Below, piece after piece: positions 145 to 25,067 of a DNA stretch of 31,000 bases; position 1 is the stretch's first letter, and each line of letters begins with the position of its first letter. This DNA comes from a virus: positions 1 to 31,000 of the IMG/VR virus record IMGVR_UViG_3300032282_004348, one strand, 5' to 3'. The position numbers and the translations under genes are program-made. The notes under the pieces were generated by a model, which saw only the letters and a list, made by a program, of their open reading frames with translations, ran no database searches and was not told where the DNA came from.

Positions 145-441
145 ATGACCAAAGAAGAAATTCTAGAAATGATACGGGAAGAATTAACAGCAGTTCTTCA
201 AGAAATGCAAAAACCAGAAGAAGAGGAACTCGACGAACGCACTGTTGCAAGTCGTGAACCACCACGAAAGATGACTAAGGGACAAGTTCAAGGTCGTGAT
301 AAGATTGGTAAAAAGTTGTTAAAGAACAAACGTTCTGTTCGTTATTTCAAAGATAAGTTTGGTGACGATTGGAAGTCGTATCTATACGCAACTGCTACCA
401 ACAAAGCAATTGATTCCAAGAAAAAGAAAGGTAAAAAGTAA
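145..441 (+). CDS. Small Lys/Glu-rich hypothetical protein
   Basis: The 98-residue product has an amphipathic, Glu-rich N-terminal helix (about residues 3-35) and a strongly basic second half ending in a Lys-rich tail (about residues 91-98). No catalytic motif or membrane segment is visible. A KDKFGDDWKSYLYATATNKA segment (about 69-88) looks like a folded helical core. Its stop overlaps the next ATG by one base (TAATG), which suggests translational coupling. The gene sits in a run of small genes before the portal gene. The acidic-helix plus basic-tail design would suit a head-internal or DNA-associated protein, but this is inference from position and charge only. Confidence 0.7.
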   Translation: MTKEEILEMIREELTAVLQEMQKPEEEELDERTVASREPPRKMTKGQVQGRDKIGKKLLKNKRSVRYFKDKFGDDWKSYLYATATNKAIDSKKKKGKK

Positions 442-974
442 TGAATTATAAAGACTATTATTCATACATCTTTGAGGACTGTGGTTGTATACACACGGAA
501 GATTGTGAATGCGGTCAACAAAAAGAAGTATATCCTTGGGGTACTTACGATTATACAAAGCGTGATGCAGAAACACAACCAAATGGTGGTTCTGAACCAA
601 AACAAGAACCAAACGATTTGGGGATGATATCGGCAAAAATTAGCGATATTATAGAAATTTTGGAACGTAGTATTCCTACGAACCCATCAAAATGGGCAGC
701 AGCAAAAGCGGCAGCTAAACGAAAATTTAAAGTTTATCCATCCGCATATGCTAATCTCTGGGCAGCTAAGAAGTATAAGAGTATGGGTGGTGGTTGGCGA
801 AGTGGTAAAAATGAAGTTCATTATCCACACAAACGCCGTGACGCGATGGGTCAAGAAGATTCTGATATCAATAATGATGGAAAGGTGGATTTACTTGATA
901 AAATGTTGAAAGCAAAACGTGATTTATATAAACGGTATTTAATAGCAAAAAAGAAGGGACAAACCTCCCTATAA
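441..974 (+). CDS. Hypothetical protein with YPSAYAN module and dockerin-like Ca-binding loop
   Basis: The product has 177 residues and at least three parts. Residues 1-30 are Cys-rich (C14, C16, C22, C24) and begin MNYKDYYSYIFE, which resembles the L/I-x-E leader of neighbouring genes. Residues 81-119 form a basic aromatic module (NPSKW ... KFKVYPSAYANLWAAKKYKS ... GGGW); from memory, this module recurs in small phage and giant-virus proteins of unknown function. Residues 142-153 read D-I-N-N-D-G-K-V-D-L-L-D, which fits a dockerin-type EF-hand loop with ligands at positions 1, 3, 5, 9 and 12. A helical basic tail follows. The start overlaps the preceding stop. Probably a virion-associated protein; function unknown. 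Confidence 0.7.
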   Translation: MNYKDYYSYIFEDCGCIHTEDCECGQQKEVYPWGTYDYTKRDAETQPNGGSEPKQEPNDLGMISAKISDIIEILERSIPTNPSKWAAAKAAAKRKFKVYPSAYANLWAAKKYKSMGGGWRSGKNEVHYPHKRRDAMGQEDSDINNDGKVDLLDKMLKAKRDLYKRYLIAKKKGQTSL

Positions 975-990: not shown

Positions 991-1635
991 ATGATTAGAC
1001 TAATGGGATTGGTAACTATACCAGCAGTAGGTAACAAACCGGTAGGATCTGTAAACGAAGAAGAAAAGTGGATTCAACACGCCATTAAGAAACCAGGAGC
1101 TTTAAAGAAGCAACTTGGTGTTGCTGCGGATGAACCAATTCCTGCTGGTAAATTAAAGACAGCTGCTGAAAAGGGTGGTAAGTTAGGTCAACGTGCCCGT
1201 TTAGCTATGACTTTAAAAAAGCTTAAAGAAGCAGAACTCTCCGAAGAACAATCCATGAAACTTGATGAATTGATTGCACAACTGGAAGCATTAGACCCAG
1301 TAGGCCAAGAAGATGGTGATATTGACAATGATGGTGACAAGGACTCAACTGACAAGTATTTGCAACATCGTCGTGATGCTATTGGCAAAGCAATGAAAAA
1401 GGAAGGTGCTGAGGGTGAAGATCACGAAGTATCAATGGCAAGTGGTGCATTGGATGATATTATCAAAAACGCAACGGAATTGAAGAGTAAGATGGGTGAA
1501 GATGAGAAGGATATTCCTGCATGGATACAAGATCACATTTCCCAAGCACAAAATTTTATTAATCAAGCAAATACCAATTATCACGAATACCAAACACCAG
1601 CGGACGCTACAGAACCAGACGCCGGAGCGATGTAA
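991..1635 (+). CDS. Modular hypothetical virion protein with acidic Ca-binding loop
   Basis: The product has 214 residues. Residues 25-80 hold a basic module (EKWIQHAIKKPGALKKQLGV, then an Ala/Lys/Gly-rich helix) that I recognise as recurring in T4-like aquatic phages without known function. Residues 110-121 read D-I-D-N-D-G-D-K-D-S-T-D, an EF-hand-like calcium loop, followed by a helix ending RRDAIGKAM. The C-terminal third (about 146-200) is helical, with DIPAWIQDHISQAQNFINQA, another common phage module. GGAG lies upstream of the ATG. The stop overlaps the next start by one base. No enzymatic motif is visible. Likely a structural or head-internal protein. Confidence 0.7.
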   Translation: MIRLMGLVTIPAVGNKPVGSVNEEEKWIQHAIKKPGALKKQLGVAADEPIPAGKLKTAAEKGGKLGQRARLAMTLKKLKEAELSEEQSMKLDELIAQLEALDPVGQEDGDIDNDGDKDSTDKYLQHRRDAIGKAMKKEGAEGEDHEVSMASGALDDIIKNATELKSKMGEDEKDIPAWIQDHISQAQNFINQANTNYHEYQTPADATEPDAGAM

Positions 1636-1997
1636 TGGAAACCGTAGCAAAGTTTTTATCCACACTATTCAATAGTCGTGACCAAGCACACATCTTCCAT
1701 TTACAAACTTCATCATATGCCGCTCATAAGGCATTGAATAAATATTATGATGAAATTATAGATTTGGCAGATAGTTACGCAGAAACCTGCCAAGGTCGTT
1801 ATGGTATTATTCGTGGATATACTCCACAAAAGCAATACTTTGAAGGTGACGAAGTAGTAAAATACTTTACAGGATTATCAACGTATATTGATACCATTCG
1901 CACAGGATTACCACAAGACGGTGACCTTAATAATATCGTTGATGAAATCTCTGGTTTGGTAAATTCTACCATTTATAAGTTAAAGTTCTTAAAGTAA
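1635..1997 (+). CDS. Small Dps/ferritin-like four-helix protein (putative)
   Basis: The 120-residue protein appears all-helical, with helices near 2-27, 29-54, 73-90 and 96-119. I recall a phage family of unknown function (possibly DUF5856) with this look, but am not certain. His19, His31, Asp46 and Glu50 have spacings of 12, 15 and 4. This is exactly the spacing of the ferroxidase ligands of E. coli Dps (H51, H63, D78, E82), and the surrounding helix pattern also agrees. At 120 residues it is shorter than typical Dps (about 150-190), mainly in the second half. A role in iron binding, DNA binding or oxidative protection is inference. It is coupled by TAATG overlaps to genes on both sides. Confidence 0.65.
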   Translation: METVAKFLSTLFNSRDQAHIFHLQTSSYAAHKALNKYYDEIIDLADSYAETCQGRYGIIRGYTPQKQYFEGDEVVKYFTGLSTYIDTIRTGLPQDGDLNNIVDEISGLVNSTIYKLKFLK

Positions 1998-2323
1998 TGA
2001 AACTAACCGATATTTTGGTCGAACTTACCGAAGATATTTTGGATGAGAAGTATAAACCAAAAGGTGAACTTGGTAAGTGGTTGAAGCAAAAATGGGTAGA
2101 TATTTCCCGTAAAGATCCAAAAACGGGCAAACATCCACCGTGTGGTGCTTCGGCAGGTAAGAAAGAACGTAAAGGTGGTTCGGCAAAATATCCCAAGTGT
2201 CGCCCAGCACGTTCAGCCGCGGCAATGACCAAGGGTGAAAAACGGTCGGCGGTAGTAAGAAAGAGAAAAGCAGGAAATCCAGGTGGAAAACCAACAATGG
2301 TTTCTACCTTTAAAAAGAAATAA
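1997..2323 (+). CDS. Cationic small protein with putative capsid-targeting leader
   Basis: The product has 108 residues. The N-terminus MKLTDILVE resembles the leaders of the genes at 2347 and 3249 and ends in an L-x-E site that a T4-type prohead protease could cut. The middle has W-V-D-I plus Cys-containing PPCGAS and KYPKCRPA segments. The C-terminal half is very basic and ends GNPGGKP ... KKK; from memory this cationic module is common in small phage proteins of unknown function. Charge and leader suggest a protein packed with the DNA in the head. That is inference; no enzymatic motif is visible. The start overlaps the upstream stop (TAATG). Confidence 0.7.
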   Translation: MKLTDILVELTEDILDEKYKPKGELGKWLKQKWVDISRKDPKTGKHPPCGASAGKKERKGGSAKYPKCRPARSAAAMTKGEKRSAVVRKRKAGNPGGKPTMVSTFKKK

Positions 2324-2346
2324 AACTCTTGACATTGAGAGAACGT

Positions 2347-2889
2347 ATGATTAGATTATCTGATATTCTTTGTGAGTCTTGTTGGGATGGATACAAGCAA
2401 GTTGGGATGAAGGAATTAAATGGTAAAATGGTTCCTAATTGTGTCCCAATAGAAGAACTTTATACTCGCCCAGAAAGTGATGTTACTTCTGATAGTGACT
2501 TCAAACCAGACCAAGACAACGAACGTGATCAGTTTGGGTCGGAAACACATACCCCGGGTCACGAAGATGAATTAAATGATGGTGAGTATTGTAAAGAATG
2601 TCTCATTGAAGTATTAAAGGGTGAACACCCAGATATGTTAGGTGAAGCAGAATATCACGGTCGTAAGGTTCCTCTTGGGAAGCCAATGCGAGGAGATGTC
2701 AAGAAGTTCAAAGTATTTGTTAAAGATCCAAAGACAGGTAATGTTAAGAAGGTTAACTTCGGTGACAAGAATATGAAAATTAAAAAGAGTATTCCTGCTC
2801 GTCGTAAAAGTTTCCGTGCAAGACATCATTGTGACACCAATCCAGGACCAAGAACAAAAGCTCGGTACTGGTCATGTCGAAAGTGGTGA
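2347..2889 (+). CDS. Cys-rich modular phage protein with putative capsid-targeting leader
   Basis: ATG 2347 was chosen over an in-frame TTG at 2329 because it yields MIRLSDILCES, matching the leaders of neighbouring genes. The leader ends L-C-E before Ser, a good fit to the T4 gp21 cleavage rule. The 180-residue protein then has a GYKQVGMKELNGKMVPNCVP module (about 13-32), an acidic linker (about 42-75), a segment with Cys81 and Cys84, and a basic C-terminus with HHCDTNPGPRTKARYWSCRKW-type Cys/Trp residues. Both terminal modules are, from memory, widespread in T4-like aquatic phages. The Cys/His content could bind zinc, but this is unproven. The next gene starts one base after the stop. Confidence 0.65.
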   Translation: MIRLSDILCESCWDGYKQVGMKELNGKMVPNCVPIEELYTRPESDVTSDSDFKPDQDNERDQFGSETHTPGHEDELNDGEYCKECLIEVLKGEHPDMLGEAEYHGRKVPLGKPMRGDVKKFKVFVKDPKTGNVKKVNFGDKNMKIKKSIPARRKSFRARHHCDTNPGPRTKARYWSCRKW

Positions 2890-2890
2890 T

Positions 2891-3256
2891 ATGAAGAAAA
2901 AAATATCACGAGAACAGTCCGACAAAATATTAGATACTATGGGTTATAAGTTTAATCCAACCGAGTTCTTTTTAGGAATGAATACAGAGTTGGAACATCA
3001 AGATGTGACTCACGGCAACGTGGTCAAGACTGCAAAAATTGCAGCGGCACACTTAAAAGAAAACCCAAAGTATTATTCATTATTAATAAAGAATGTAGAA
3101 AAAAAGGTTTCGGAACAAATGGCAGGAGCAGCACCAGCAGGAGCAGCACCCGCAATGGGATTAGTTGGACCTGGTGGCGTCATTAGAGGAGCACCGAAAC
3201 CAAAAGATGTAAAGAAAATGCGAAAAGCATTGAATAAGGAGAAGAAGCATGATTAA
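2891..3256 (+). CDS. DUF5661-like small phage protein
   Basis: ATG 2891 was chosen because it follows the previous stop directly; the open frame continues further upstream but would overlap conserved sequence of that gene. The 121-residue product has a conserved-looking core (about 21-65): FNPTEFFLGMNTELEHQD, then a KIAAAHLKENPKYYSLL segment. This matches my recollection of the DUF5661 family (GM..E.EH ... KIA..HL...P.YY). An Ala/Pro/Gly-rich linker and a Lys-rich tail follow. The function of this family is unknown. The last eight bases overlap the next gene, whose SD (aaggaga, about 3237-3243) lies inside this one. Confidence 0.65.
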   Translation: MKKKISREQSDKILDTMGYKFNPTEFFLGMNTELEHQDVTHGNVVKTAKIAAAHLKENPKYYSLLIKNVEKKVSEQMAGAAPAGAAPAMGLVGPGGVIRGAPKPKDVKKMRKALNKEKKHD

Positions 3257-3599
3257 GTTAACAGATATTATTACCGAAGCAGGTAAAGAAAATCGTATCA
3301 ATTCAATGCGTTTAGTCGCATTACTTGAAAAGTTGGTTCCTACATTAAAGGAAGCACAACTAAAAGAAGTAATGAAGTTGACCGCAGAACTCATCGCCGG
3401 AATCACACAAGTCAACGAAATGCCATACAACTACAACACAATGACAGAGTGGCACATGACAGAATTGGCAACGGTAGTATTACCAGCAAAAGAGCTACGT
3501 GAAAAGTTAAATAGTTTATTAAATAAACCAACAAAGGGATTAGATACACAATCCGTTCAAATGGTTCTTAATGCGATAGACGAATTGTATATCTACTAA
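3249..3599 (+). CDS. Helical small protein with putative capsid-targeting leader
   Basis: The 116-residue protein begins MIKLTDIITEAGKE. This closely parallels the capsid-targeting leader of T4 internal proteins, and it contains the cleavage pattern I-T-E followed by Ala. The remainder is predicted helical (about 18-50, 68-90, 98-113) with no Cys, catalytic or membrane motif. It overlaps the preceding gene by eight bases and ends 13 bases before the portal ATG. I do not recognise the mature domain. Best guess is a small head-internal or prohead-core protein; confidence in function is low. Confidence 0.7.
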   Translation: MIKLTDIITEAGKENRINSMRLVALLEKLVPTLKEAQLKEVMKLTAELIAGITQVNEMPYNYNTMTEWHMTELATVVLPAKELREKLNSLLNKPTKGLDTQSVQMVLNAIDELYIY

Positions 3600-3612
3600 A
3601 AGTTGAGGGGTT

Positions 3613-5505
3613 ATGGCGGATAATAGCATATTTAGCAGATTAAAGAAACTTTTTTCAACCAATACAGTTGTTCGTAATGTTGGTGGTAAAAAGTTAAAAA
3701 TCGCTGACACAGATAATATTCAGTCGTTTATTAATAGACGCGGTATTGATAGATACCACCGTGTTTATTCATCAATGACGGGTGGGTATGGGTCTGCGCA
3801 TGGGCGATACGAAGCCGCCGCAGCATTTCAGGGGTCACGACTCCAATTATTCCGTGACTATGATATGATGGATAATGATCCTATCATCGCATCGGTATTA
3901 GACATTTACGCCGATGAATCAACAGTGAAGGATGAATTTGGTAATATTCTTACCATTCATTCAAAAAATACACAAATCCAAGAAATCTTACATAACTTAT
4001 TCTATGATGTGTTGAATGTAGAATTCAACCTATGGCCGTGGGTCAGAAACATGGCTAAGTATGGAGATTTCTTTTTATATTTGGATATTGACCCAGAATA
4101 CGGTGTGGTTAATGTCTTACCACTTTCTGTATACGAAACTATTCGTATTGAAGGACAAGACCCAGGTAATCCATTTTCAGTCAAATTCAAGATTGAGAAT
4201 GATTTCTTGGCACTAGGTAAGACGGAATTTGATAACTATGAAGTAGCACATTTCCGACTGTTATCAGATACCAACTTCCTTCCATATGGTAAGAGTATGA
4301 TTGAAGGTGGTCGCCGTGTGTGGAAGCAACTCCAACTGATGGAAGATGCGATGTTAATCCATCGTATCATGCGAGCACCAGATAAACGTAAAATTTTAGT
4401 TGATATCGGTAATATTCCACCGGCAGAGATTGATACCTTTATGGGTCGTATTATCGACCGTATGAAGAAAACGCCACTGGTTGATCCACAAACGGGTGAC
4501 TATAATCTCAAATATAATATGCAGAATATTACAGAAGATTTCTTCTTACCAACTCGTGGAAAAGACAGTGGTACCGATATCCAAAATCTTCCTGGATTAC
4601 AGTTTAACGCAATAGAAGATATTGAATATCTTCGTAGAAAATTATTGGCTGCATTCAAAGTACCAAAGTCATTTATTGGATACGACGAAGATATTAGTGG
4701 GAAAGCTACCTTAGCGGCACAAGATGTTCGATTTGCACGTACGATTGAACGTGTACAACGTATTATGGTATCGGAACTTACCAAAATTGCAATCATTCAT
4801 TTGTACGTCCAAGGATATACAGACGAAGAATTAGTTGATTTTGAATTGTCTCTCACAAATCCTTCTGTTATTTATGAACAAGAAAAGTTGAATTTGTGGA
4901 AGGAAAAAATTGGTGTTGCGGAACAAATTGCAGGTAGTAAGATGTTGTCCCAGCAGTGGATTTACCATAATATTCTTGAACTATCTGACGATGAAATTGA
5001 AGAAGAGCGTCAACTAATTGTGGAAGATGTCAAACGTATGGCTGAGCTGACGGGAATTGAACAGTCCGCAGGACAACCAGAGCAGGTACCGGCCGGTGGT
5101 GAAACTCCTGAGGAACAACCAACTGACCAATCCGCACCGGAAGAACAAGAACAACAAATAGATGATGTGGATACAATTCTTTCTTCACTCGAAGAACCAT
5201 CGCAGGAAGAAAGTGAACTGGAAATCCCAGAAGAAGAATTGGAAGAGTCTAATATGGGTCGTCCGAGAGAAGGCGTAAAATTCGGACAAGACAGCCATCC
5301 ACGGGGTCGTGATCCTCTTGGACATAAAGAAAATAAAAAAGTTTTTAAAGTAGGTAAGCAAAGAAATGACAAACGTAAGTCACCACTGTCATTAGAAATA
5401 CAAGCATTTTTAAATAAAGCAACTTCGAAGAGTATTATTATGGAATCAACCCCACCTTCGCAGTCTTTATTGGATGAAAGTAATATTTTAGACCTTGAAA
5501 ATTAA
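3613..5505 (+). CDS. gp20: Portal vertex protein (T4 gp20-like)
   Basis: The 630-residue protein has the sequence character of T4-type portals: an N-terminal FQGSRLQLFRDYDMMDNDPIIASVLDIYADE segment (about residues 76-106), then YEVAHFRLLSD...LPYGKSMIEGGRRVWKQLQLMEDAMLIHRI (about 210-252), and FKVPKSFIGYDEDISGKATLAAQDVRFARTIERVQ (about 351-385) near the crown. The portal is a dodecameric ring at one capsid vertex; it starts prohead assembly, is the DNA channel and is the docking site for terminase and neck. T4 gp20 has 524 residues. The extra length here is mainly a C-terminal extension with a Gln/Glu/Pro-rich acidic stretch (about 480-545) and a basic GRPREG/RGRDPLG tail. A GAGGGG lies just before the ATG. 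Confidence 0.95.
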   Translation: MADNSIFSRLKKLFSTNTVVRNVGGKKLKIADTDNIQSFINRRGIDRYHRVYSSMTGGYGSAHGRYEAAAAFQGSRLQLFRDYDMMDNDPIIASVLDIYADESTVKDEFGNILTIHSKNTQIQEILHNLFYDVLNVEFNLWPWVRNMAKYGDFFLYLDIDPEYGVVNVLPLSVYETIRIEGQDPGNPFSVKFKIENDFLALGKTEFDNYEVAHFRLLSDTNFLPYGKSMIEGGRRVWKQLQLMEDAMLIHRIMRAPDKRKILVDIGNIPPAEIDTFMGRIIDRMKKTPLVDPQTGDYNLKYNMQNITEDFFLPTRGKDSGTDIQNLPGLQFNAIEDIEYLRRKLLAAFKVPKSFIGYDEDISGKATLAAQDVRFARTIERVQRIMVSELTKIAIIHLYVQGYTDEELVDFELSLTNPSVIYEQEKLNLWKEKIGVAEQIAGSKMLSQQWIYHNILELSDDEIEEERQLIVEDVKRMAELTGIEQSAGQPEQVPAGGETPEEQPTDQSAPEEQEQQIDDVDTILSSLEEPSQEESELEIPEEELEESNMGRPREGVKFGQDSHPRGRDPLGHKENKKVFKVGKQRNDKRKSPLSLEIQAFLNKATSKSIIMESTPPSQSLLDESNILDLEN

Positions 5506-5510
5506 AGTCT

Positions 5511-5518
5511 TATAAATA
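5511..5518 (+). promoter_or_regulatory. Exact T4 late-promoter-like box TATAAATA
   Basis: The gap between portal and the next gene contains TATAAATA, identical to the T4 late -10 element in the direction of transcription, about 51 bases before ATG 5570. A second AT-rich TATAAT (5543-5548) lies in the loop of a weak 5-bp hairpin (ATGAC 5536-5540 with GTCAT 5549-5553). Which of these acts as a promoter cannot be told by eye. Other late genes here carry the opposite orientation, TATTTATA. Confidence 0.35.
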
Positions 5519-5569
5519 TTCGTTATATTTAATATATGACGGTATAATGTCATTAAAAACGGGATGTGT

Positions 5570-6448
5570 ATGAAATCAAACGTCAAGCACAACAAAATAC
5601 GGAATACGGGCATTCTTTTTGAACTATTAGTCCGTAAAATTACCTCCGACGCATTGGAAAATCGTAGTAGTGATACTGCGGTGAAACTAATGAAGGAGTA
5701 TTTCAACTCTAAAACAGAGCTTGGTAAAGAATTAATTCTGTATAGATCATTCTTCAATGCGCAACAACTTAGCGAAACAAAGGCATTTGAATTATTAAAT
5801 CTTATTATTGAACAACGTAAGAAACTTAATGAAATAGCACTTAATACCCAAAAATATAAGTTGATTAAAGAAATCAAAAACAACTACGATTTAAAAGAAT
5901 TTTTAGGTGCTCGTATTCCGTCATATAAAGTTTATGCTTCTGTATACAAAGTGTTTGATGGTGTTATAAATGAAATTAAAGATTTTAATGAAATTGAGGG
6001 GATGGTGGAAGCGAAGTTTACCATCGTAGAACACCTCAGTGGTAAAATCTCCAACAAAGAAATTAAAAACGATACTGCCCTGTTTGAAACAGTGAAGGGA
6101 CAAGAAGAAGATTTACGTCTATTGTCTTATAAGATTTTGATGGAAAAGTTCAATGAAAAATATCAAGGATTGAACGACCGTCAAAAAAATCTTCTTCGTG
6201 AATACATCAACAACGTGTCAAATAGTGCAACTCTTCGTAAGTGTGCAGTTGAAGAATGCAACAGTCTAATTACAGAGATTAAGACAAAGTTGAGTAAAGT
6301 TCAAGATAAAATCGTAAAAATTAAATTGTCAGAAGTGGTCAGTCAGTTAGAAAAAATCAAGACTACCCAAGTTATTAAAGAAAATCATATGACTGCGTTA
6401 CTTATCGCTTTGGAAATTACCAAAACGTTAGACACTTTGAAGAGTTAA
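5570..6448 (+). CDS. Conserved T4-like phage protein between portal and protease
   Basis: The 292-residue protein is almost entirely helical and Lys/Glu-rich. It opens with a NVKHNKIRNTGILFELLVRK segment that I recall from T4-like aquatic phages, always unannotated. ATG 5570 is preferred over ATG 5564 because GGG at 5561-5563 then has a six-base spacing; the choice adds or drops two residues. It lies where T4 has prohead-core genes 67 and 68, between portal and protease. A prohead-core or assembly-chaperone role is therefore a positional inference, not a homology claim. No enzymatic or membrane motif is visible. Confidence 0.75.
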   Translation: MKSNVKHNKIRNTGILFELLVRKITSDALENRSSDTAVKLMKEYFNSKTELGKELILYRSFFNAQQLSETKAFELLNLIIEQRKKLNEIALNTQKYKLIKEIKNNYDLKEFLGARIPSYKVYASVYKVFDGVINEIKDFNEIEGMVEAKFTIVEHLSGKISNKEIKNDTALFETVKGQEEDLRLLSYKILMEKFNEKYQGLNDRQKNLLREYINNVSNSATLRKCAVEECNSLITEIKTKLSKVQDKIVKIKLSEVVSQLEKIKTTQVIKENHMTALLIALEITKTLDTLKS

Positions 6449-6450
6449 CT

Positions 6451-6948
6451 ATGGACAAGAAAGAAGCACTCCGTAATGCTATCCGTGAAATGATTAAAAA
6501 GGAATTAGACGAAATGACCACAACCGGAATGGTTGGTGGTTACTTAACTCCAATGGCATTTCGTGGCAATAAACAAAAAAATGTTGCTCGTGCAAAACAC
6601 ATAGCAACGGATACTACTGGATTCAAACTAACACCACGCGGTGAAAAGGATATCAATCGTCCAGCAGATAAGATGGAAGTTGTAACAAAAGAATTGTCCG
6701 AAAACAAGTATTACGCATATAAAAACGATTCAACAAAATCCGTACATAGAAAAATTGCAGAAGCAATTTCTCAACTAAATAAAAATTTACAAGAAGTTGA
6801 GCAAGTAATTAAAATGAATGCTCGACTAAAAACCGAATCTGGAATTGCAAGTGAACAACTATGGAAGCGTACCCAACAAGGATTATTAAAGTTGGAAGCA
6901 AAACTTCTCGGTATTGCTACCAGAATTCGTGAAATTAGAGGACAATAA
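6451..6948 (+). CDS. Putative prohead core protein (positional equivalent of T4 gp68)
   Basis: The product has 165 residues. The N-terminus is a charged helix ending KKELDEMTTTGMVGGYLTP; an L-x-E occurs here but is followed by Met. The second half (about 80-165) is helical, with YYAYKNDSTKSVHRKIAEAISQLNK and a coiled-coil-like stretch ending in TRIREIRGQ. I recall this arrangement from T4-like aquatic phage head genes without a proven role. It starts two bases after the preceding gene and ends one base before the protease ATG, whose SD lies within it. It is most likely a structural component of the prohead core. Confidence 0.7.
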   Translation: MDKKEALRNAIREMIKKELDEMTTTGMVGGYLTPMAFRGNKQKNVARAKHIATDTTGFKLTPRGEKDINRPADKMEVVTKELSENKYYAYKNDSTKSVHRKIAEAISQLNKNLQEVEQVIKMNARLKTESGIASEQLWKRTQQGLLKLEAKLLGIATRIREIRGQ

Positions 6949-6949
6949 G

Positions 6950-7537
6950 ATGCAAACATTACTTGTTGAATATAACGTCATATCGTACGATTCTTCATTA
7001 TTAACCGAAGCCTCAGACATCTCAAAACCATTGATGTTGAAGGATGTAATTTTACAACGTGCTGATCATAAGAATCAAAACGGTCGTGTATATCCAAAAG
7101 AAATTTTGGCACGTGAAGCAATGGCATATAAGCAAAATTTCGTTTCACAACGTAGAGCATTGGGTGAATTGGACCATCCAGAAAGTCCAGTAGTCAATCT
7201 CAAAAATGTATGCTGCAATGTTACCGATATGTGGTTTGAGGGTGATGACGTAAAGGGTAATATTGAAATTCTATCTACACCGTCAGGAAACATTGTTCGT
7301 GAACTAATTAAGAATAATATCCGATTGGGTGTATCTTCCCGTGGTATGGGATCTGTTAAACAAATTGGTGAAAGTACAGTCGAAGTTGGTGAAGATTTTA
7401 ACTTGATTTGTTTTGACATCGTGAGTAATCCTTCTACCTACGGAGCATTTATCAACGAAAATAAGGGTTCGCAAATTATCACCCCATATTCTCGTATTGA
7501 TACCCTCATCTATGACTTTCTAGGTGAGTTAAAATAA
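6950..7537 (+). CDS. gp21: Prohead maturation protease (T4 gp21-like)
   Basis: ATG 6950 has AGAGGA at 6937-6942; the open frame extends upstream to a TTG at 6914, which is less likely. The 195-residue protein has the T4 gp21 signature: LGELDHPESP with the catalytic His (about residue 83) and GVSSRGMG with the nucleophilic Ser (about residues 126-133). T4 gp21 has 212 residues. This enzyme sits in the prohead core and cuts scaffold, capsid and internal proteins after Glu in L/I-x-E sites before DNA packaging. Its own N-terminus contains L-L-T-E followed by Ala (Glu20/Ala21), a likely self-cleavage site. It follows the portal and core genes as in T4. Confidence 0.93.
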   Translation: MQTLLVEYNVISYDSSLLTEASDISKPLMLKDVILQRADHKNQNGRVYPKEILAREAMAYKQNFVSQRRALGELDHPESPVVNLKNVCCNVTDMWFEGDDVKGNIEILSTPSGNIVRELIKNNIRLGVSSRGMGSVKQIGESTVEVGEDFNLICFDIVSNPSTYGAFINENKGSQIITPYSRIDTLIYDFLGELK

Positions 7538-7558
7538 TCTATAAAACAAGGAGTTTTT

Positions 7559-7822
7559 ATGTTACTAACGTTCATAGTTCTCGTAGTTGTGGTAGCTGCT
7601 GGTGTATGGTGGATTAACCACAAGAACTCACAGCCACTTCCAAAGTCAGTTTTGACTGTCTCCCATAAGGTAGAAGAAGTAGCTAAAAATATTGCAGATG
7701 TCAACAATGATGGTAAGGTTGATATTAAGGACGCAGTTGCAGCAGTTAAGAAGGTTGAAGAAACCGGTAAAAAGGCTGTAAAGACTGCTAAGAAGATTAC
7801 CAGTAAAAAGAAGAGTAAGTAA
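7559..7822 (+). CDS. Membrane-anchored small protein with dockerin-like Ca loop
   Basis: The 87-residue product starts with one strongly hydrophobic helix (residues 2-19) ending in WWINHK, which would place most of the chain on one side of a membrane. Residues 47-58 read D-V-N-N-D-G-K-V-D-I-K-D, a dockerin-type EF-hand loop nearly identical to that in the gene at 441. The C-terminal 25 residues are mainly Lys/Thr/Ala and very basic. An AAGGAG precedes the ATG by six bases. The short hydrophobic head could be a signal anchor. Function unknown; candidates are a lysis-accessory or virion membrane-contact protein, both speculative. Confidence 0.7.
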   Translation: MLLTFIVLVVVVAAGVWWINHKNSQPLPKSVLTVSHKVEEVAKNIADVNNDGKVDIKDAVAAVKKVEETGKKAVKTAKKITSKKKSK

Positions 7823-7828
7823 TATTCT

Positions 7829-8209
7829 ATGCTGTTAAAAACTTTACTCACGGAAGTTTACCACAAAGAATTAGTAAATGAGTTTGTAAAGTTTGTTACA
7901 AAAGAATTACAACTCAAATCACTACCTGCCAAAATTAAATTTGCGGGTAGTGATTATTCTAAAAAACATCTGACATTTGGAACATATCAACCAAGTACGG
8001 ATGAAATTGTAATTGTAAAAAATGGACGACATATCGTAGATACTTTACGAACGTTGGCACATGAATTGGTACATCATAAACAACGCGAAGAAGGTAAAGA
8101 AGCAGATGGACATGATGGGTCACCAATTGAAAATGAGGCAAACGCGGTTGCGGGTACCTTGATGCGTAAATTTAGATATTTGTATCCTGAAATGTATTCG
8201 GAGAACTAG
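7829..8209 (+). CDS. Zinc metallopeptidase-like protein (HExxH) with putative capsid-targeting leader
   Basis: The 126-residue protein has HELVH at residues 78-82, preceded by a helix (VDTLRTLA) typical of zincin active sites. After it comes a GSPIENEANAVAG segment (97-109) in which Glu101 or Glu103 could be the third zinc ligand. I recall this layout from small phage-encoded SprT/IrrE-like peptidases. The N-terminus MLLKTLLTE resembles the leaders of other genes here, with L-T-E at 7-9, although Val rather than Ala/Gly/Ser follows. If packaged, it could be delivered with the DNA and cut host proteins, or act in virion maturation. Both are inference; the HExxH motif is directly seen. Confidence 0.8.
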   Translation: MLLKTLLTEVYHKELVNEFVKFVTKELQLKSLPAKIKFAGSDYSKKHLTFGTYQPSTDEIVIVKNGRHIVDTLRTLAHELVHHKQREEGKEADGHDGSPIENEANAVAGTLMRKFRYLYPEMYSEN

Positions 8210-8210
8210 G

Positions 8211-8693
8211 ATGCCATCAGTAAGTAAAGCACAACAAAAATTATTTGGTATTGTACATGCTATTCAAACTGGACGAGCAAAAGCAACTGATTTTAGTCCA
8301 ACGGCACAAAAATTAGCACATACTATGTCGAAAGATGATGTAAAGAAATATGCAAGTACACCAATATCCAAGTTACCACAGAAAAAGGATGAAGTAGCTG
8401 GAGCAATACCTGCATCAGATTTTCCTGTAGCGTCAGATGATACCACACCAACTGTATCCAACGATCCACATCTTGTATCTGTTGATGAAGATTATAGTGT
8501 AAAACAAAGTAAAATTCTAAGTATTGTTAAAGATAAGAAACCAGCTGAAGTTGGTGGGATTATGCTAGACATATACACCGCAGCATTAATTACTCGTATA
8601 TTACACAAGTTGTCACCTGAAAATAGAAAAAAAATGTTGGCATTACCAACTGACAAAATGGTAGCCACGGCATATAAACTAGTTACACGATAA
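8211..8693 (+). CDS. DUF3008-like two-module phage protein
   Basis: The 160-residue protein opens with PSVSKAQQKLFGIVHAIQTG and continues to KDDVKKYAST...LPQKK (about residues 1-58). This fits my memory of DUF3008, a short basic family of unknown function found in phages and bacteria. A Pro/Ser/Asp-rich linker (about 60-95) leads to a second helical module (about 103-160) with KKPAEVGGIMLDIYTAALI and a LPTDKMVATAYKL ending. The second module also recurs, from memory, in T4-like aquatic phage proteins. It begins one base after the metallopeptidase stop. Its position in the head module suggests a virion or prohead role, which is unproven. Confidence 0.7.
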   Translation: MPSVSKAQQKLFGIVHAIQTGRAKATDFSPTAQKLAHTMSKDDVKKYASTPISKLPQKKDEVAGAIPASDFPVASDDTTPTVSNDPHLVSVDEDYSVKQSKILSIVKDKKPAEVGGIMLDIYTAALITRILHKLSPENRKKMLALPTDKMVATAYKLVTR

Positions 8694-8697
8694 CATC

Positions 8698-9381
8698 GTG
8701 GGAAAGGCCGCGTATATTACAGACTTTGATGATACCCTAGTGCATACAGACGCTAGGGTTATTGTTATTGATAAGGACGGAAACCGAAGAACAATATCAC
8801 CCGCCGAATACGCTGCGTATGAAAAACAAGATGGTGATACATTTGATTTTTCTGAGTTTGAACAATTAAAAAATCCTCGTCCTATTAAAAAATATACAAA
8901 TTTATTGAAGAAAGTTATTGATCAAAAGAAGGCTGATAAAGTAGTGGTACTCACCGCCCGTGGTCATACAAAACCTATTGCAAAATTCCTTCAATTACAA
9001 GGAATTACTTCAGGAGTTACCATTGCTGCATTAGGTAATTCCGACCCAATGGCAAAGGCTCGTTATATTGAAAAACATATCAATGATGGATTTGATAGAA
9101 TTGTATTCGTAGATGATGCACCAAAGAATGTAAAGGCGGTCAAAACACTATTGGATAAATACCCACAGACTAAGTTGGTAGTCCAACAAGCCCAAGAAAA
9201 GGACACAAAAAAGACTGGTGCCACACCAACGAAGCAAACACGATTAAAAGATTTATTAAAACATCGTATTAAGAATCCACAGACGGGTAGAGATATTTTA
9301 GTTAAGAGTGCACTGGGATATAATCCCGACTCACAGGTCAGAAAGACGGCAATGAACTATATATCGAAAAATATGAAATAG
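8698..9381 (+). CDS. HAD-superfamily phosphatase fused to a phage C-terminal module
   Basis: The start is GTG 8698, because no in-frame ATG precedes the motif; no clear SD is seen. The 227-residue protein has a HAD motif I (D9-F-D11-D-T13), a motif II Thr in VVLTARG, Lys residues around KARYIEKHI and an acidic motif IV (FVDDAPKN). These support Mg-dependent phosphoryl transfer; the substrate is unknown, with nucleotide or nucleic-acid 5'/3' phosphates possible. After a Lys/Thr linker, residues 190-227 form a separate basic module (RIKNPQTGRDILVKSALGY) of a kind seen at the ends of phage and giant-virus proteins. This suggests an enzyme attached to a virion or DNA-binding tail. Confidence 0.8.
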   Translation: MGKAAYITDFDDTLVHTDARVIVIDKDGNRRTISPAEYAAYEKQDGDTFDFSEFEQLKNPRPIKKYTNLLKKVIDQKKADKVVVLTARGHTKPIAKFLQLQGITSGVTIAALGNSDPMAKARYIEKHINDGFDRIVFVDDAPKNVKAVKTLLDKYPQTKLVVQQAQEKDTKKTGATPTKQTRLKDLLKHRIKNPQTGRDILVKSALGYNPDSQVRKTAMNYISKNMK

Positions 9382-9382
9382 T

Positions 9383-10084
9383 ATGGATATAAAAAAAGTT
9401 ATTTTGGAATCACCAGAAGGTGCTTGCTTAAATTCAAATAATCACTTATTAGATAATATTGATTTCATCGCAGAACATATCGCAGATATATCTGGTGATA
9501 TAGTTGAATGTGGTGTGTGGAAAGGTGCTACGTTGTCATATATGGCGACCGTGTTTCCTACACGAACTATTTGGGCATACGACTCCTTTGAGGGAGTACC
9601 TACCAATAAAGAACAAACAAAATATCCAGATAAGTATTCAATACGTGGTACTGACTGGGCCACTTGTTGCACTGAGTTATCGGCGGACGTATCATTTTTA
9701 CACGATGCATTTGTTAAATACAACGTCCCCAATCCAGAAAGAATACAAATTGTAAAGGGATGGTTTAAGGATACATTACCGACTGCAACACAACAAATCG
9801 CATTGTTAAGAGTTGATGGGGACTTATACTCATCTACTTACGAAGTATTAGAATATTTATACCCATTGGTTGTAAAGGGTGGGTTTGTTATTTTCGATGA
9901 TTATTGCATAAGTGAATCACGAGAAGCAGTACATGATTATTTTTGTAGAATAGGTGAATTACCAACATTCTATGATATATCGGATGAATTACCGTGGATA
10001 AAAGAAGGGTTATATATTAATTCTGATGGATCTCACAATTTGGATGAAACCGGACATAGACAAGGTGTTTTCATTAGAAAATAA
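9383..10084 (+). CDS. TylF/MycF-family O-methyltransferase
   Basis: The 233-residue protein matches the macrocin O-methyltransferase (TylF) family. It has a SAM-binding VECGVWKG (41-48), YDSFEG (66-71), LRVDGDLYSS (142-151) and GGFVIFDDYC (166-175); the last two hold Asp residues that bind Mg and the catechol-like or sugar hydroxyls in this family. Known members methylate sugar hydroxyls of antibiotics, and others sit in surface-glycan clusters. In a phage it could alter host surface sugars or virion glycans. Its N-terminus MDIKKVILES contains I-L-E before Ser, so it may carry a capsid-targeting peptide. It lies oddly within the head gene block. Confidence 0.88.
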   Translation: MDIKKVILESPEGACLNSNNHLLDNIDFIAEHIADISGDIVECGVWKGATLSYMATVFPTRTIWAYDSFEGVPTNKEQTKYPDKYSIRGTDWATCCTELSADVSFLHDAFVKYNVPNPERIQIVKGWFKDTLPTATQQIALLRVDGDLYSSTYEVLEYLYPLVVKGGFVIFDDYCISESREAVHDYFCRIGELPTFYDISDELPWIKEGLYINSDGSHNLDETGHRQGVFIRK

Positions 10085-10085
10085 A

Positions 10086-10094
10086 CTATTTATT
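10086..10094 (+). promoter_or_regulatory. Late-promoter-like box CTATTTATT
   Basis: This is a near-copy of the recurring TATTTATA motif (last base T), 27 bases before ATG 10122, with GGAGAT in between. Spacing agrees with most of the other copies at 13700, 16200, 18912, 24418 and 25068. The promoter role is inferred from recurrence and position. Confidence 0.35.
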
Positions 10095-10121
10095 TTTTAG
10101 TTTCATATAACGGAGATAACT

Positions 10122-10445
10122 ATGGGAACAGAACAAGAAGTAATCAATCAAGAAAGTAAGTTTAGTCAATTACTCAATCAAACAATGTCCCGTCGCTGGG
10201 GAATCACAGCAATCGTATTAGCAACATTTTTGTTTATTGTTGCCGGTGTCTCGTTAGCCGTATATGGCAAAAGCCCACTTGACCAGGAATGGAAGGAAAT
10301 CCTTCTTCTTATGTTAGGTGCATTTATCGGTTCATACGGCAAAATCATTGATTATTGGTTCTCCGATACAGATAAGGATAAGATGTTAGTACAAAAGATG
10401 GACGAAGAAGATGGTACAGCAATGTCAAACACACTAGGTGGCTAA
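10122..10445 (+). CDS. Two-helix small membrane protein (candidate holin)
   Basis: The 107-residue protein has two predicted membrane helices, about 27-48 (GITAIVLATFLFIVAG...) and 58-76 (EILLLMLGAFIGSYGKIID), a charged N-terminus with Arg24-Arg25, and an acidic C-terminal tail. Size and topology fit a two-helix holin or a small inner-membrane protein. I recognise no specific family, and no endolysin is adjacent, so holin is only one possibility. GGAGAT precedes the start, and a TATTTATT box lies further upstream. The bS21 gene follows 12 bases after its stop. Confidence 0.7.
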   Translation: MGTEQEVINQESKFSQLLNQTMSRRWGITAIVLATFLFIVAGVSLAVYGKSPLDQEWKEILLLMLGAFIGSYGKIIDYWFSDTDKDKMLVQKMDEEDGTAMSNTLGG

Positions 10446-10446
10446 T

Positions 10447-10454
10447 AAGGAGGT
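10447..10454 (+). promoter_or_regulatory. Full-length Shine-Dalgarno site of the bS21 gene
   Basis: AAGGAGGT is a full match to the 16S rRNA 3' end, four bases (counted from GGAGG) before ATG 10458. It is one of the two longest SD matches in the window; the other is at 16228-16235. Confidence 0.7.
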
Positions 10455-10457
10455 TGT

Positions 10458-10676
10458 ATGTATGTTGAAGTAAAAGGAGATAGTTTGGGTGACTTAGATA
10501 GAGCACTCCGCCAATTCTCTAAAATGGTTAAGAAGGCAGAAATTGTTAATGAAGTTAAACGCCGTGAATTTTATGTGAAGCGGTCAAAGAAAAAGATACT
10601 AAAACAACAAGAAGCACTTCGTCGTAGAATTCGTGAAGAAAAGAAAGTTGAGAAGAGAAAAAACTCAGAGTGGTAA
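10458..10676 (+). CDS. rpsU: Phage-encoded ribosomal protein bS21
   Basis: The 72-residue, highly basic protein aligns by eye with bacterial bS21 (71 residues in E. coli). It has the ALRQFSKMVKKAEIVNEV stretch (16-33) and the hallmark VKRREFYVK (33-41), followed by a basic helical tail. bS21 sits at the 30S platform near the 16S rRNA 3' end and aids mRNA initiation. Phage copies are known from aquatic phage genomes and are thought to replace host bS21 and bias translation. The gene lies in the late structural block, immediately before the scaffold gene, with a perfect SD. Effects on phage translation are inference; the family call is firm. Confidence 0.92.
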   Translation: MYVEVKGDSLGDLDRALRQFSKMVKKAEIVNEVKRREFYVKRSKKKILKQQEALRRRIREEKKVEKRKNSEW

Positions 10677-10721
10677 AAAATGGTGTTTTTTGTAAAAATA
10701 CCAATATATATTATATAGATT

Positions 10722-10739
10722 ACACCTCTCTTGGGGTGT
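10722..10739 (+). promoter_or_regulatory. Hairpin after bS21 in the leader of the scaffold gene
   Basis: ACACCTC (10722-10728) pairs with GGGGTGT (10733-10739), including one G-T pair, around a TCTT loop. No T-tract follows, so it is not a classic terminator. It may protect a 3' end or modulate expression of the downstream scaffold gene. Confidence 0.4.
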
Positions 10740-10743
10740 GTAC

Positions 10744-10784
10744 CTATTTGTATTAATAACCGTATAATAGTTCGAATAACTATT
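10744..10784 (+). promoter_or_regulatory. Possible promoter region and inverted repeat before scaffold gene
   Basis: TATTTGTA (one mismatch to the recurring TATTTATA) begins at 10745, and a TATAAT lies at 10763-10768. An inverted repeat AATAGTT (10766-10772) / AACTATT (10778-10784) overlaps the latter. The gap of 130 bases from 10677 to 10806 holds no gene. Confidence 0.3.
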
Positions 10785-10806
10785 GAAACAACACGAGAGG
10801 CATTAT

Positions 10807-12024
10807 ATGGCAGAAATCACAAACGAACTTCTAAAGCAAGCAATTGCAGACGCAGAAGCTGTTCGTCAGACAGCTATCGCAAATGCAAAGATTGCATTGG
10901 AAGAAACATTCACACCCCAAATCAAGTCCATGCTAGCAAAGCGCTTACGTGCAGAAGCAATGGAAAGTGAAGTAGCAGAGGAAGCTGCAAAGGAAGAACC
11001 ATTCCAGGACGCAACACACGTAACTGGTGGTGGCCCGGAAGATACATCAACAATCGGTACAGCTGATAACAAGGAACCATCGGACGCATCGTGGGATTCG
11101 TCGGATATTGACCAAAGTGGTGAAGGTCATGGTGACAGTAAGGCTGATTGGTATGATGATTGGTCCGAATCAGATTTTGACCTTGACGAAGTAATCAAGG
11201 AATTAGAAGAAGATGTAAAAGCTCTTTCCGAAGCTGACGAAGAGGAAGAAGAAGATGAAGGTATGAAAAACGAAGGTTATCATGAAGAAGAGGAAGGTGA
11301 AGAGGACGATGAAAACGTCGTTGATCCAACTGCAACAGCTCACACCCCGCCAGAAGCAGCCAAGAAGATGTCAATGGCAATGCAAAAGAAGGGTGACGAC
11401 AAATCAAAGGCTCCGGCAGTAAATCCAATGGGTAGGGAAGAAGAAGATGAAACAGTAGCTTCCGACCCGTCTAAGTGGGCTCATGCACACAGTGGCGCAA
11501 TGCCAGAGATGGGCATGACTCATGGTTCCGAAGAAGGTGAAGGCGAAGAAGAACTTGATCTTGAAGCAATTCTCCGTGAACTTGAAGCCCAAGATGTTAA
11601 GGAAAAGGAAGCATCTGAAAAAATGGCTTCAGAAATGGCAGCGCTTCAACATGAGCTCGCAGAATATCGTAAGGTTGTAAATGTCCTACGAGGCAAGCTA
11701 AACGAAGTAAATCTTCTAAACGCAAAACTCTTATATACCAACAAGATTTTCCGCAAGGAAGGTTTAACCAACGAACAAAAGGTCACAATTCTTGAATCAT
11801 TTGACCGTGCAGTAAACGTTCGTGAAGTTAAGATGGTATACACAACCTTAGTTGAAGCAATGACTGTCGCAGCTAAGACTGTAAGTAAGGGTCGCACCGT
11901 ATCAAGTAAGGTGGTTACCGAAGGTTTGGCAAGTAAGCCAACTAAGAGTACCGCACCAAAGAAGGAAATTTTAGAAGAAAACACAGTCGCAAAGCGTCTA
12001 CAACAACTCGCAGGCATTCTATAA
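10807..12024 (+). CDS. gp22: Prohead core scaffold protein (T4 gp22-like)
   Basis: ATG 10807 has GAGAGG at 10795-10800; an upstream in-frame TTG at 10783 is less likely. The 405-residue protein has an N-terminal helix (LLKQAIADAEAVRQTAIANAKIALEE, then FTPQIKSMLAKRL) of the kind found in aquatic T4-like gp22. A long Glu/Asp-rich middle (about 60-265) follows, then a helical C-terminal part (about 266-360) and a tail ending AKRLQQLAGIL. Scaffolds of this type fill the prohead and are degraded by gp21. Several L/I-x-E sites followed by A or S are visible, for example Glu142/Ala143. It directly precedes the capsid gene as in T4. The exact ring of gp22 function is known from T4, not shown here. 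Confidence 0.88.
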   Translation: MAEITNELLKQAIADAEAVRQTAIANAKIALEETFTPQIKSMLAKRLRAEAMESEVAEEAAKEEPFQDATHVTGGGPEDTSTIGTADNKEPSDASWDSSDIDQSGEGHGDSKADWYDDWSESDFDLDEVIKELEEDVKALSEADEEEEEDEGMKNEGYHEEEEGEEDDENVVDPTATAHTPPEAAKKMSMAMQKKGDDKSKAPAVNPMGREEEDETVASDPSKWAHAHSGAMPEMGMTHGSEEGEGEEELDLEAILRELEAQDVKEKEASEKMASEMAALQHELAEYRKVVNVLRGKLNEVNLLNAKLLYTNKIFRKEGLTNEQKVTILESFDRAVNVREVKMVYTTLVEAMTVAAKTVSKGRTVSSKVVTEGLASKPTKSTAPKKEILEENTVAKRLQQLAGIL

Positions 12025-12043
12025 CTTTTAGGAGATAAATCAT

Positions 12044-13621
12044 ATGTCAGGTGTATCAGAATTTATCAACGAAGCCGGTTCAGCACACCGTGTAGTAGTT
12101 GAAAAGACCCGCCAATTGGCAGGTAAGTGGGAAAAGTCAGGCCTTTTGGAAGGCTTGAGTGGCCATGAAAAGCAAGGCATGGCAGTAATGTTGGAAAACC
12201 AAGCATCACAACTCCTCTCAGAAGCAACCACAACGAACCCAGGTGGTTCAGGCACAGCTGGTGAAAACTGGGCAGGTGTTGCACTTCCATTAGTACGTAA
12301 GGTCTTTGGTTCAATCGCATCAAAGAACTTCGTATCAGTTCAGCCAATGAACTTACCAGCAGGTTTGGTATTCTTCATGGACTTCAAGTATGCAAACACA
12401 GTAAACGGTAAGACAGCAGGTGGTTCAGTATACGGTACAACTTCAGGTTCAGGTACACTTCCACGTGGTGGTTTCTACGGTGCTGGTGAATATGCATATT
12501 CATTCAATGACCAAACATTGACACTTGCTCCACAAATTGCTTCATCATCTGTTGGTTATGGTGATGTAAATTACAACGATAACTGGTCATCATCTTTTGC
12601 ATCATTGCAGAAGTACGTTGTTCCAGCAGTAAGTTTCTCAAATGCTGACTTCAACGTAGTACGTTCATTCCGTCCATCCGGTTCATTCGGTAGTACAGCA
12701 TGGACAGCACTTCCAGAATTCACCAAGTATGATGGTACAAACGTAACCTTCATCGTAAGTGGTGCTGCAATTGCAGCAGGTACAATTGGTGCAGTTGAAT
12801 ACAGTAAGCAACCAACTGAAACCACACGTGGTGACTTCGAAGATCGTGACAATTCAGTAACAAACTTGAACATTCCACAAATTGATTTGGAACTTCGTTC
12901 AGAAACAATCGTTGCTAAGACACGTAAGTTGAAGGCAGTCTGGTCACCAGAACTTGCACAAGACTTGAACGCATACCACAGTGTTGATGCAGAAGCAGAA
13001 TTAACAGCAATGTTAAGTGACTACATCTCAACAGAAATTGATTTGGAAATCCTTGATATGTTAATTAACAACGCAACAACAACCGAATACTGGCACGCAG
13101 AAGTCGGTAAGGTATGGAACGGTTCAGCATTCGTACCAAGTGCAACACTCAGTGGACAAGCTTGGACAAACATGACCTGGTACCAAACACTTGGTCAGAA
13201 GATGCAGAAGGTTTCTAACAAGATTCATCAGTTGACAATGAGAGGTGGTGCAAACTTCGCAGTATGTTCACCAACTGTTGCAACAATCATCGAAACAATC
13301 CCAGGATTTATGGCAGCAACAGACGGTGATAAGATGGAATTTGCAGGTGGTGTAACAAAGGTTGGTTCATTCCAAAACCGTTACACAATCTACAAGAACC
13401 CATATATGACTGAAAATACTGTACTTCTTGGTTTCCGTGGAAGTAACTTCCTCGAAACAGGCGCAGTATACGCACCATATATCCCACTTATCATGACTCC
13501 GTTGGTATACGATCCAAACAACTTCACACCACGTAGAGGCGTAATGACCCGCTACGCGAAGAAGATCGTACGTCCAGAATTCTTCGGTAAGATTTACATC
13601 GACGGATTGGCAACAGTCTAA
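12044..13621 (+). CDS. gp23: Major capsid protein (T4 gp23-like)
   Basis: The 525-residue protein (T4 gp23 has 521) shows T4-type capsid features: ENWAGVALPLVRKVFGSIASKNFVSVQPMNLPAGLVFFMDF (about 76-115), LRSETIVAKTRKLKAVWSPELAQDL (about 285-309) and a C-terminal FTPRRGVMTRYAKKIVRPEFFGKI. An L-S-E before Ala at Glu60/Ala61 fits the known removal of an approximately 65-residue leader by the prohead protease. The first residues, MSGVSEFINEA, contain another such site (Glu10/Ala11). AGGAGA precedes the ATG. Codon use is more uniform here than in neighbours, as expected for a highly expressed gene. It is followed by a strong terminator. Confidence 0.96.
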   Translation: MSGVSEFINEAGSAHRVVVEKTRQLAGKWEKSGLLEGLSGHEKQGMAVMLENQASQLLSEATTTNPGGSGTAGENWAGVALPLVRKVFGSIASKNFVSVQPMNLPAGLVFFMDFKYANTVNGKTAGGSVYGTTSGSGTLPRGGFYGAGEYAYSFNDQTLTLAPQIASSSVGYGDVNYNDNWSSSFASLQKYVVPAVSFSNADFNVVRSFRPSGSFGSTAWTALPEFTKYDGTNVTFIVSGAAIAAGTIGAVEYSKQPTETTRGDFEDRDNSVTNLNIPQIDLELRSETIVAKTRKLKAVWSPELAQDLNAYHSVDAEAELTAMLSDYISTEIDLEILDMLINNATTTEYWHAEVGKVWNGSAFVPSATLSGQAWTNMTWYQTLGQKMQKVSNKIHQLTMRGGANFAVCSPTVATIIETIPGFMAATDGDKMEFAGGVTKVGSFQNRYTIYKNPYMTENTVLLGFRGSNFLETGAVYAPYIPLIMTPLVYDPNNFTPRRGVMTRYAKKIVRPEFFGKIYIDGLATV

Positions 13622-22525: not shown

Positions 22526-22528
22526 GTT

Positions 22529-23623: not shown

Positions 23624-23626
23624 TGG

Positions 23627-23634
23627 TATTTATA
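23627..23634 (+). promoter_or_regulatory. Late-promoter-like box TATTTATA close to start
   Basis: The same 8-base motif lies only ten bases before ATG 23645, much nearer than elsewhere. If it is a promoter here, the transcript would have almost no leader; no SD is seen. Confidence 0.3.
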
Positions 23635-23644
23635 CTTTTAATAT

Positions 23645-24409: not shown

Positions 24410-24417
24410 ACACATAA

Positions 24418-25059: not shown

Positions 25060-25067
25060 TAGTTAAC

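Follow-up and report, generated by a model that had tools for sequence, protein, structure and literature searches.

That the T4 head carries protein cargo has been known for decades. The capsid-targeting sequence (CTS) of the T4 internal proteins IPII and IPIII is MKTYQEFIAE↓A (the arrow marks the bond after Glu), with Y4, F7, I8 and E10 (Mullaney and Black 1996, via PMC9026906). Mutagenesis assigned residues 4 and 7 to targeting and residues 8 and 10 to processing; Asp at residue 10 blocks cutting while targeting is kept, and IPII, IPIII and gp24 have their N-terminal propeptides removed (PMC9026906). The same paper suggests that the tag may be a general route by which T4-like phages take in various proteins. 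In other T4-like phages, virion enzymes (NMNAT, kinases, SAM hydrolase and a Cas9-like protein) have been an unexplained mass spectrometry (MS) finding, possibly reflecting contamination (PMC10665884). Here we describe CTS-like leaders at gene starts in a 31-kb viral contig from IMG/VR (the window, meaning the whole stretch analyzed), which comes from a T4-like phage and carries a T4-type head gene cluster. We conclude that the leaders are very probably T4-type capsid-targeting propeptides borne by a large, interchangeable set of cargo proteins.

Two other systems resemble this one in principle, yet each departs from it in protease family, length or consensus. In the giant phages SPN3US and phiKZ, a gp21-related protease cuts head proteins after a short Glu-ending motif, and diverged paralogues have conserved N-termini (PMC5694885). 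However, several of those propeptides exceed 100 residues, their P3 preference is A/S-x-E and the protease belongs to family S80. We rejected this model for the window, whose protease is S77 and whose leaders are 9-17 residues long and end in L/I-x-E. For DarB of phage P1, a short N-terminal signal is enough to bring a reporter into the head (PMC9024508), but the Dar signals share no consensus and are longer than 9 and shorter than 30 residues. We found no report of such leaders outside T-even phages among the open-access papers searched; subscription journals were not covered.

Like the T4 CTS, the window leaders are short and N-terminal, with hydrophobics at 4, 7 and 8 and Glu at 10 in the spacing of T4 IPIII. 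They precede unrelated proteins, and the S77 protease gp21 is encoded in the same head cluster, with gp20 and gp23. Unlike the T4 CTS, their consensus is MI[KR]LxD[IL][IL]xE, or MIKLKDLLxE in many uncultured contigs. The set of bodies is also far larger and includes enzymes, the major capsid protein carries a leader too, and P1' is looser.

The leader motif is enriched at gene starts of T4-like phages

A sequence-only reading of the window had quoted related N-termini at 1997, 2347, 3249, 7829, 9383 and 12044, together with LLTEA at residues 17-21 of the protease at 6950, and all of these are exact. The six leaders are as follows.

1997..2047 (open reading frame [ORF] 1997-2323), + strand: leader MKLTDILVE and second site ILDE↓KYK on a small, very basic protein (DUF5872-like, pI 10.2)
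2347..2376, + strand: leader MIRLSDILCE↓S of a 180-residue protein (2347-2889); full leader in some relatives
3249..3278, + strand: leader MIKLTDIITE↓A of a 116-residue helical protein (3249-3599)
7829..7855, + strand: leader MLLKTLLTE↓V of an HExxH metallopeptidase (7829-8209); extension variable among relatives
9383..9409, + strand: leader MDIKKVILE↓S of a TylF-type methyltransferase (9383-10084; TylF PF05711, E=1e-39); motif fit
12044..12073, + strand: leader MSGVSEFINEA of the capsid protein; conserved in the close clade

All six match the pattern M.{1,2}[LIVFMY]..[LIVFM][LIVFM].E, or M-x(1-2)-Φ-x-x-Φ-Φ-x-E with Φ hydrophobic. Gene starts were called mechanically; the window and T4 alone served to set the pattern, which was then applied to relatives, controls and cyanophages. 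Counted from Glu at P1, hydrophobics fall at P7, P4 and P3; the 10-residue leaders have L4/I7 or V4/F7, and the 9-residue leaders are equivalent when counted this way. The motif occurs in 6 of 35 window genes versus 0.18 expected with residues 2-20 shuffled (maximum 4 in 5000 shuffles). This score has some circularity, since these six leaders and T4 were used to fit the pattern.

Could L/I-x-E simply be common in the short helical N-termini of small phage proteins? We fetched 160 relative loci through the capsid and portal proteins, called their genes mechanically and grouped them by body. Among 282 body families there were 17.9 family-weighted hits, versus 1.35 in shuffles (maximum 4.8 of 300), and the N-terminal rate of 6.4% was 15 times the 0.42% at internal Met. 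The 249 families without a window member gave 14.15 weighted hits versus 1.1 shuffled (maximum 6 in 1000). Random AT-rich viral contigs, taken without matching of habitat or phage type, showed no excess over chance (3/1350 proteins, shuffle mean 4.8), and T7, lambda and a crAss-like phage together had none in 191 proteins. In T4, 6 of 228 proteins match (1.0 expected), IPII, IPIII and gp24 among them; four long T4-like relatives had 18/717, and eight S77-positive leader genomes had 31/737 with genes matching the DNA-scan pattern (below) excluded. The rate in T4-like sets is 2.5-5%, against a background of about 0.4% of proteins. That background amounts to a few hits per genome, with probable false ones such as RNase H in T4 and RecA in the cyanophage S-SZBM1. 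A DNA scan of IMG/VR for MIKLK[DN]LLxE likewise found at least 120 stretches, versus 10 for a scrambled peptide with almost identical composition, the MIKLK[DN]LLxE pattern being twofold more degenerate. Chance is therefore refuted for the set, and we give it a next to negligible probability as a general explanation. Given the background hits, single proteins without relatives, chiefly the methyltransferase at 9383, could still be chance matches.

Two other T4 proteins (NC_000866) match the motif: gp61.1 (L205:8966-9130), which begins MKTFKEFIKE↓D, and gp2 (L200:16062-16886), which begins MAIFQIINE↓S. From its start, gp61.1 looks like an unrecognized candidate for T4 head cargo.

The residue after Glu is variable. 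Over 366 leaders, P1' was A in 17%, S in 10%, V in 9%, G in 9%, E in 8%, N in 7% and K in 7%. Restricting P1' weakened the positional signal, so we rejected a strict rule of L/I-x-E followed by A/G/S. The sequence-only reading had relied on that rule, which proved unusable, and had regarded Leu at 1997 and Val at 7829 as poorer fits; since P1' is loose, neither is a misfit.

Leaders are conserved, modular and linked to the S77 protease

Conservation in relatives had been proposed as a check on the leaders: the core motif is kept in 45/48 orthologues of the 3249 protein and 34/36 of the 1997 protein. In the 3249 alignment, L4 and E10 are at least 90% conserved though whole-sequence identity drops to about 20%. 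L4 reaches at least 90% in both alignments, A1 and A2, the members of A1 having mostly been chosen by motif. The fold of the 3249 protein matched nothing in a viral library at E <= 0.001. For the 1997 protein, the conserved, functional cut is probably at the second site, ILDE↓KYK; we place it there because shorter orthologues read MILLKDIILDE↓KYVPKG. Relatives of the 2347 protein are more varied. The core motif is present in 14/57, and a further 18/57 have only a short M[ED]x[LIM]xE↓A leader, as in MENLNE↓ACWEGYKQVG, which retains LxE↓A without the long leader. The metallopeptidase leader at 7829 stands in some relatives and fails in others: a 9-16-residue extension is present in 5 of 12 aligned same-body relatives and absent in 7. 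The methyltransferase at 9383 had no orthologue among the relatives fetched, and its search matched only distant Mycobacterium phage proteins. Its leader is the weaker case because there is no orthologue in which to check conservation.

Two further starts look like related, less canonical leader forms.

441..476, + strand: candidate longer leader MNYKDYYSYIFE of a 177-residue basic protein, an aromatic variant; weaker, strict motif not matched
991..1020, + strand: leader-like start MIRLMGLVTI, with hydrophobics at 4, 7 and 8 and no Glu at 10

Relatives of the 441 protein start MKYRDFFPE↓G or MINYKEFFTE↓L, and many members of the 991 family start MIRLxGLVxL. Speculatively, the 991 start may be the targeting-type half of a leader without the processing Glu. 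The 991-1635 ORF also contains an acidic repeat-like module, DPVGQEDGDIDNDGDKDSTDKYL, similar to the N-terminal region of phage cytidyltransferases (phrog_764) and found again in several proteins of the head cluster.

The capsid protein has sites beyond its leader.

12215..12223, + strand: gp23 delta-domain maturation site LSE60↓A61 (QLLSE↓A), with a further site, GLLE36↓G, upstream

Many relatives have an [LI]xE[AGST] match at or near site 60, QLLDE↓A being one form, and most have GLLE↓G. The capsid leader that had been recognized is present, but the mature capsid protein does not begin after FINE, and the usual delta-domain sites lie further in. In capsid proteins of relatives at 58% identity, the start keeps its hydrophobics and Glu is replaced by Gly (MDLKKLMTG). 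The later sites remain in most (GLLE↓G) or many (QLLDE↓A) of these relatives; docking and cutting are thus separable, as in T4.

Perhaps, then, the leader is a helix that docks on the prohead core, or on some other partner in the head, and is never cut, with Glu as an interface residue? The MDLKKLMTG relatives are compatible with this, as is T4, where Asp at residue 10 gives targeting without processing. The cargo leaders themselves speak otherwise. When positions 4, 7 and 8 are all hydrophobic, Glu occupies residue 10 in 46-51% of cases and Asp in 3-4% for two S77-linked sets (23% and 5% in the four long relatives), and Glu is not among the commonest residues there in random contigs. A preference for Glu with no enrichment of Asp fits P1 of a protease rather than an acidic interface. 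In addition, the short leaders of the 2347 family lack the docking part and retain LxE↓A. We consider an uncut helix unlikely, and processing by the head protease the better reading.

The leaders are modular. About 125 body clusters from relatives and leader-scan contigs bear one, a rough figure in which one cluster is a chained group of 125 sequences. The same bodies occur with and without a leader among metallopeptidases, HAD and DUF5661 proteins. In the window, the HAD-type protein (8698-9381, GTG start) is leaderless, as in close relatives; its homologues in four other contigs (L215, L232, L264, L484) carry MIKLxDxLLE directly before the catalytic motif FDFDDTLV. Pfam names among leader bodies include TylF, NUDIX, zeta-toxin-like, poly(A)-polymerase head, peptidase M23, lysozyme, GNAT, HD and 2'-5' RNA ligase, plus a sub-cut-off match to the ADP-ribosyltransferase of polyvalent proteins. 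The peptidoglycan enzymes could alternatively be tail parts. The commonest leader-bearing body, WYPAHT (L255), had no cultured relative by tblastn. Tandem arrays of leader genes exist, with six in G014. Confinement of leaders to the head cluster was rejected: it holds in G001 (4/4 within 11 of 148 kb), but other genomes also have leaders far away.

Such arrangements might arise if gene starts had been copied by recombination, or kept for translation initiation, with no function at the protein level. Leaders are indeed slightly more alike within a contig than between contigs (0.43 versus 0.38), and codon identity between leaders of one genome is a little above that expected from codon usage (63% versus 51%). 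Nevertheless, their codons differ widely, which argues for selection on the peptide rather than fresh copies, and recent copying was rejected on the strength of this codon identity. The motif is conserved across orthologues with whole-sequence identity of 20-35%, Glu is selected at one position, and enrichment follows S77 and virion presence. Copied gene starts are thus largely refuted and, to our judgment, very unlikely.

The targeting-propeptide reading ties the leaders to the prohead protease. An S77 protease was found in 22 of 40 contigs with MIKLKDLLxE leaders versus 3 of 41 length-matched random contigs (p=3e-6), and in none of the 10 scrambled-pattern contigs, which were mostly short.

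A second helical N-terminus, M[KND]xxELxxIIREExxx, recurs in the window (145-441 and 6451-6948) and, in relatives, in fam 19, fam 32 and others; examples are MTKEEILEMIREEL and MDKKEALRNAIREMIKKEL. It was found in 0/1350 proteins of random contigs, 6/717 and 7/698 in S77-positive genomes, and none in T4. We kept this start (MKKSELKxIIREE) apart from the leader signal because, despite its link to S77, it has a different spacing and T4 lacks it. It is possibly another core-docking helix.

Some leader proteins are detected in cyanophage virions

Published virion proteomes of cyanophages were compared with the pattern, which had already been fixed. These lists cover presence and are silent on the face of the particle and on cutting. 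In S-CREM2 (table in PMC10665884), 5 of 6 motif ORFs with annotated starts were in the virion versus 47 of 213 others (p=0.003); with blind gene calls the figure was 4 of 5 (p=0.009). The five are as follows.

SAM hydrolase gp6: MKDFDSFLEE
kinase gp14: MKRFDAFLTE
cytidylyltransferase gp154: MKNFSSFLTE
gp13: MKDLHSFLTE
gp136: MQTFSMFFSE

The sixth, at 21651, is absent from the list. The authors of that study allow for carry-over, that is, possible contamination, of virion enzymes (PMC10665884). The Cas9-like virion protein gp12 of S-CREM2 (OR473000, 7704-10313) has the core motif, RFASFMAE↓A, at residues 18-25 and not at its start; its annotated start may be too early or its leader longer.

The single enzyme detected in the S-SZBM1 virion, a cytidylyltransferase, begins MRFRQFIIE↓A (PMC9146016), and the virion NMNAT of S-SCSM1 begins MKSFLQFLKE↓A (PMC9602691). 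NMNATs of P-SSM2, S-SM2, S-SRM01, S-CRM01 and P-TIM68 have similar starts, so that 6 of 8 cyanophage homologues sampled, S-SCSM1 included, start like the T4 tag; those of S-CAM9 and C48C1 show no motif as annotated. Cyanophage cytidylyltransferase/NMNAT, kinase and SAM hydrolase, all MS-detected in virions, carry MKSFxQFLxE-type leaders of the same pattern. These are aromatic, as in T4, in contrast to the MIKLKDLL type, and the available portions of the source papers mention neither a leader nor a loading mechanism. The earlier analogy to T4 thus agrees with the data on spacing, Glu rather than Asp, S77 co-occurrence, modular attachment and cyanophage virion enzymes.

A proposed loading route and its meaning

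The window encodes the parts that such a route would use.

3613..5505, + strand: portal protein gp20 (Pfam PF07230, E=6e-67)
6950..7537, + strand: prohead protease gp21 (Peptidase S77; Pfam PF03420, E=3e-28), with self-sites LVE7 and LLTE20↓A
10807..12024, + strand: scaffold gp22-like protein, the presumed leader docking surface, between gp21 and gp23 (pI 4.5, net charge -47)
start 12044, + strand: major capsid protein gp23, similar to T4-like capsid proteins by tblastn

The gp21 self-sites are also seen in relatives, and the scaffold role of the 10807 protein is suggested by gene order. By analogy to T4, the hydrophobic patches at P7 and P4/P3 (residues 4 and 7/8 of a 10-mer) would dock a new protein on the gp22-type scaffold core during prohead assembly. 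Once the shell is complete, gp21 would cut after Glu at P1 of [L/I]-x-E. The leader would depart, and the mature cargo would stay beside the DNA inside the head until infection, when it would be injected. The capsid protein would dock by the same kind of start and later be trimmed at QLLSE60↓A. For this phage, we infer each of these steps, from docking on gp22 through cleavage and packaging to injection. The proteins at 1997, 2347, 3249 and 7829 are probable head cargo, and the methyltransferase at 9383 is a possible one.

Several observations weigh against this reading. P1' is looser than in the classic T4 rule. Structure lends mixed support: in AlphaFold models the 3249 leader is of low confidence (pLDDT about 53, against about 90 in the helical body), but the 7829 leader extends the first body helix and is not clearly detached. 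Eighteen of the 40 leader contigs have no recognizable S77; 17 of these also lack Gp23, and many are fragments. They include G017 (125 kb) and G021 (207 kb), each of which is either incomplete or from a phage whose head protease has diverged. Few leader genes occur in the closest isolate, Flavobacterium phage immuto; we found no description of its virion proteomics among the open-access papers searched. In the whole genome of S-SZBM1, only 1 of 5 motif ORFs was detected in the virion (p=0.5, not significant), and a strong candidate, MKSFKSFLSE, went undetected. Finally, the virion data on leader proteins come from cyanophages.

Around the leader genes, the window resembles a T4-like structural region. 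By capsid protein, the nearest isolates are immuto (53%), Microcystis phage Mel-JY01 (51%) and Rhodothermus phage RM378 (36%). Small proteins of mostly obscure function lie before and among the head genes; downstream come neck/tail-type genes and then repeat-rich structural proteins. The latter are long (19880-30531), with recurring SGSFTGS and VVSSSAQV units, and those at 25109 and 27226 share the start MANEFVAR. The head cluster also holds a phage-encoded ribosomal protein, bS21 (10458-10676), with the cargo-type genes on one side and the scaffold on the other; in Mel-JY01 a bS21 gene also adjoins the protease.

We think it rather likely that T4-like phages infecting heterotrophs and cyanobacteria share a single head-loading address readable in the sequence (hydrophobic residues 4, 7 and 8 with Glu 10), that it serves to pack an interchangeable set of well over 100 types of protein for delivery at infection, and that DNA alone suffices to list what the virions of uncultured phages carry. 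With about the same confidence, the cargo would include methyltransferase, metallopeptidase, zeta-toxin-like P-loop, NUDIX, ADP-ribosyltransferase-like, acetyltransferase, HAD, SAM hydrolase, kinase and NMNAT proteins. Our data extend the general-tag suggestion of PMC9026906 to uncultured phages and to cyanophage virion enzymes. A motif that predicts S-CREM2 virion proteins and sits on many bodies would make head cargo readable from genomes. It would point to a pool of first-minute effectors and counter-defense proteins, and would offer ready-made address tags for loading proteins into phages besides T4.

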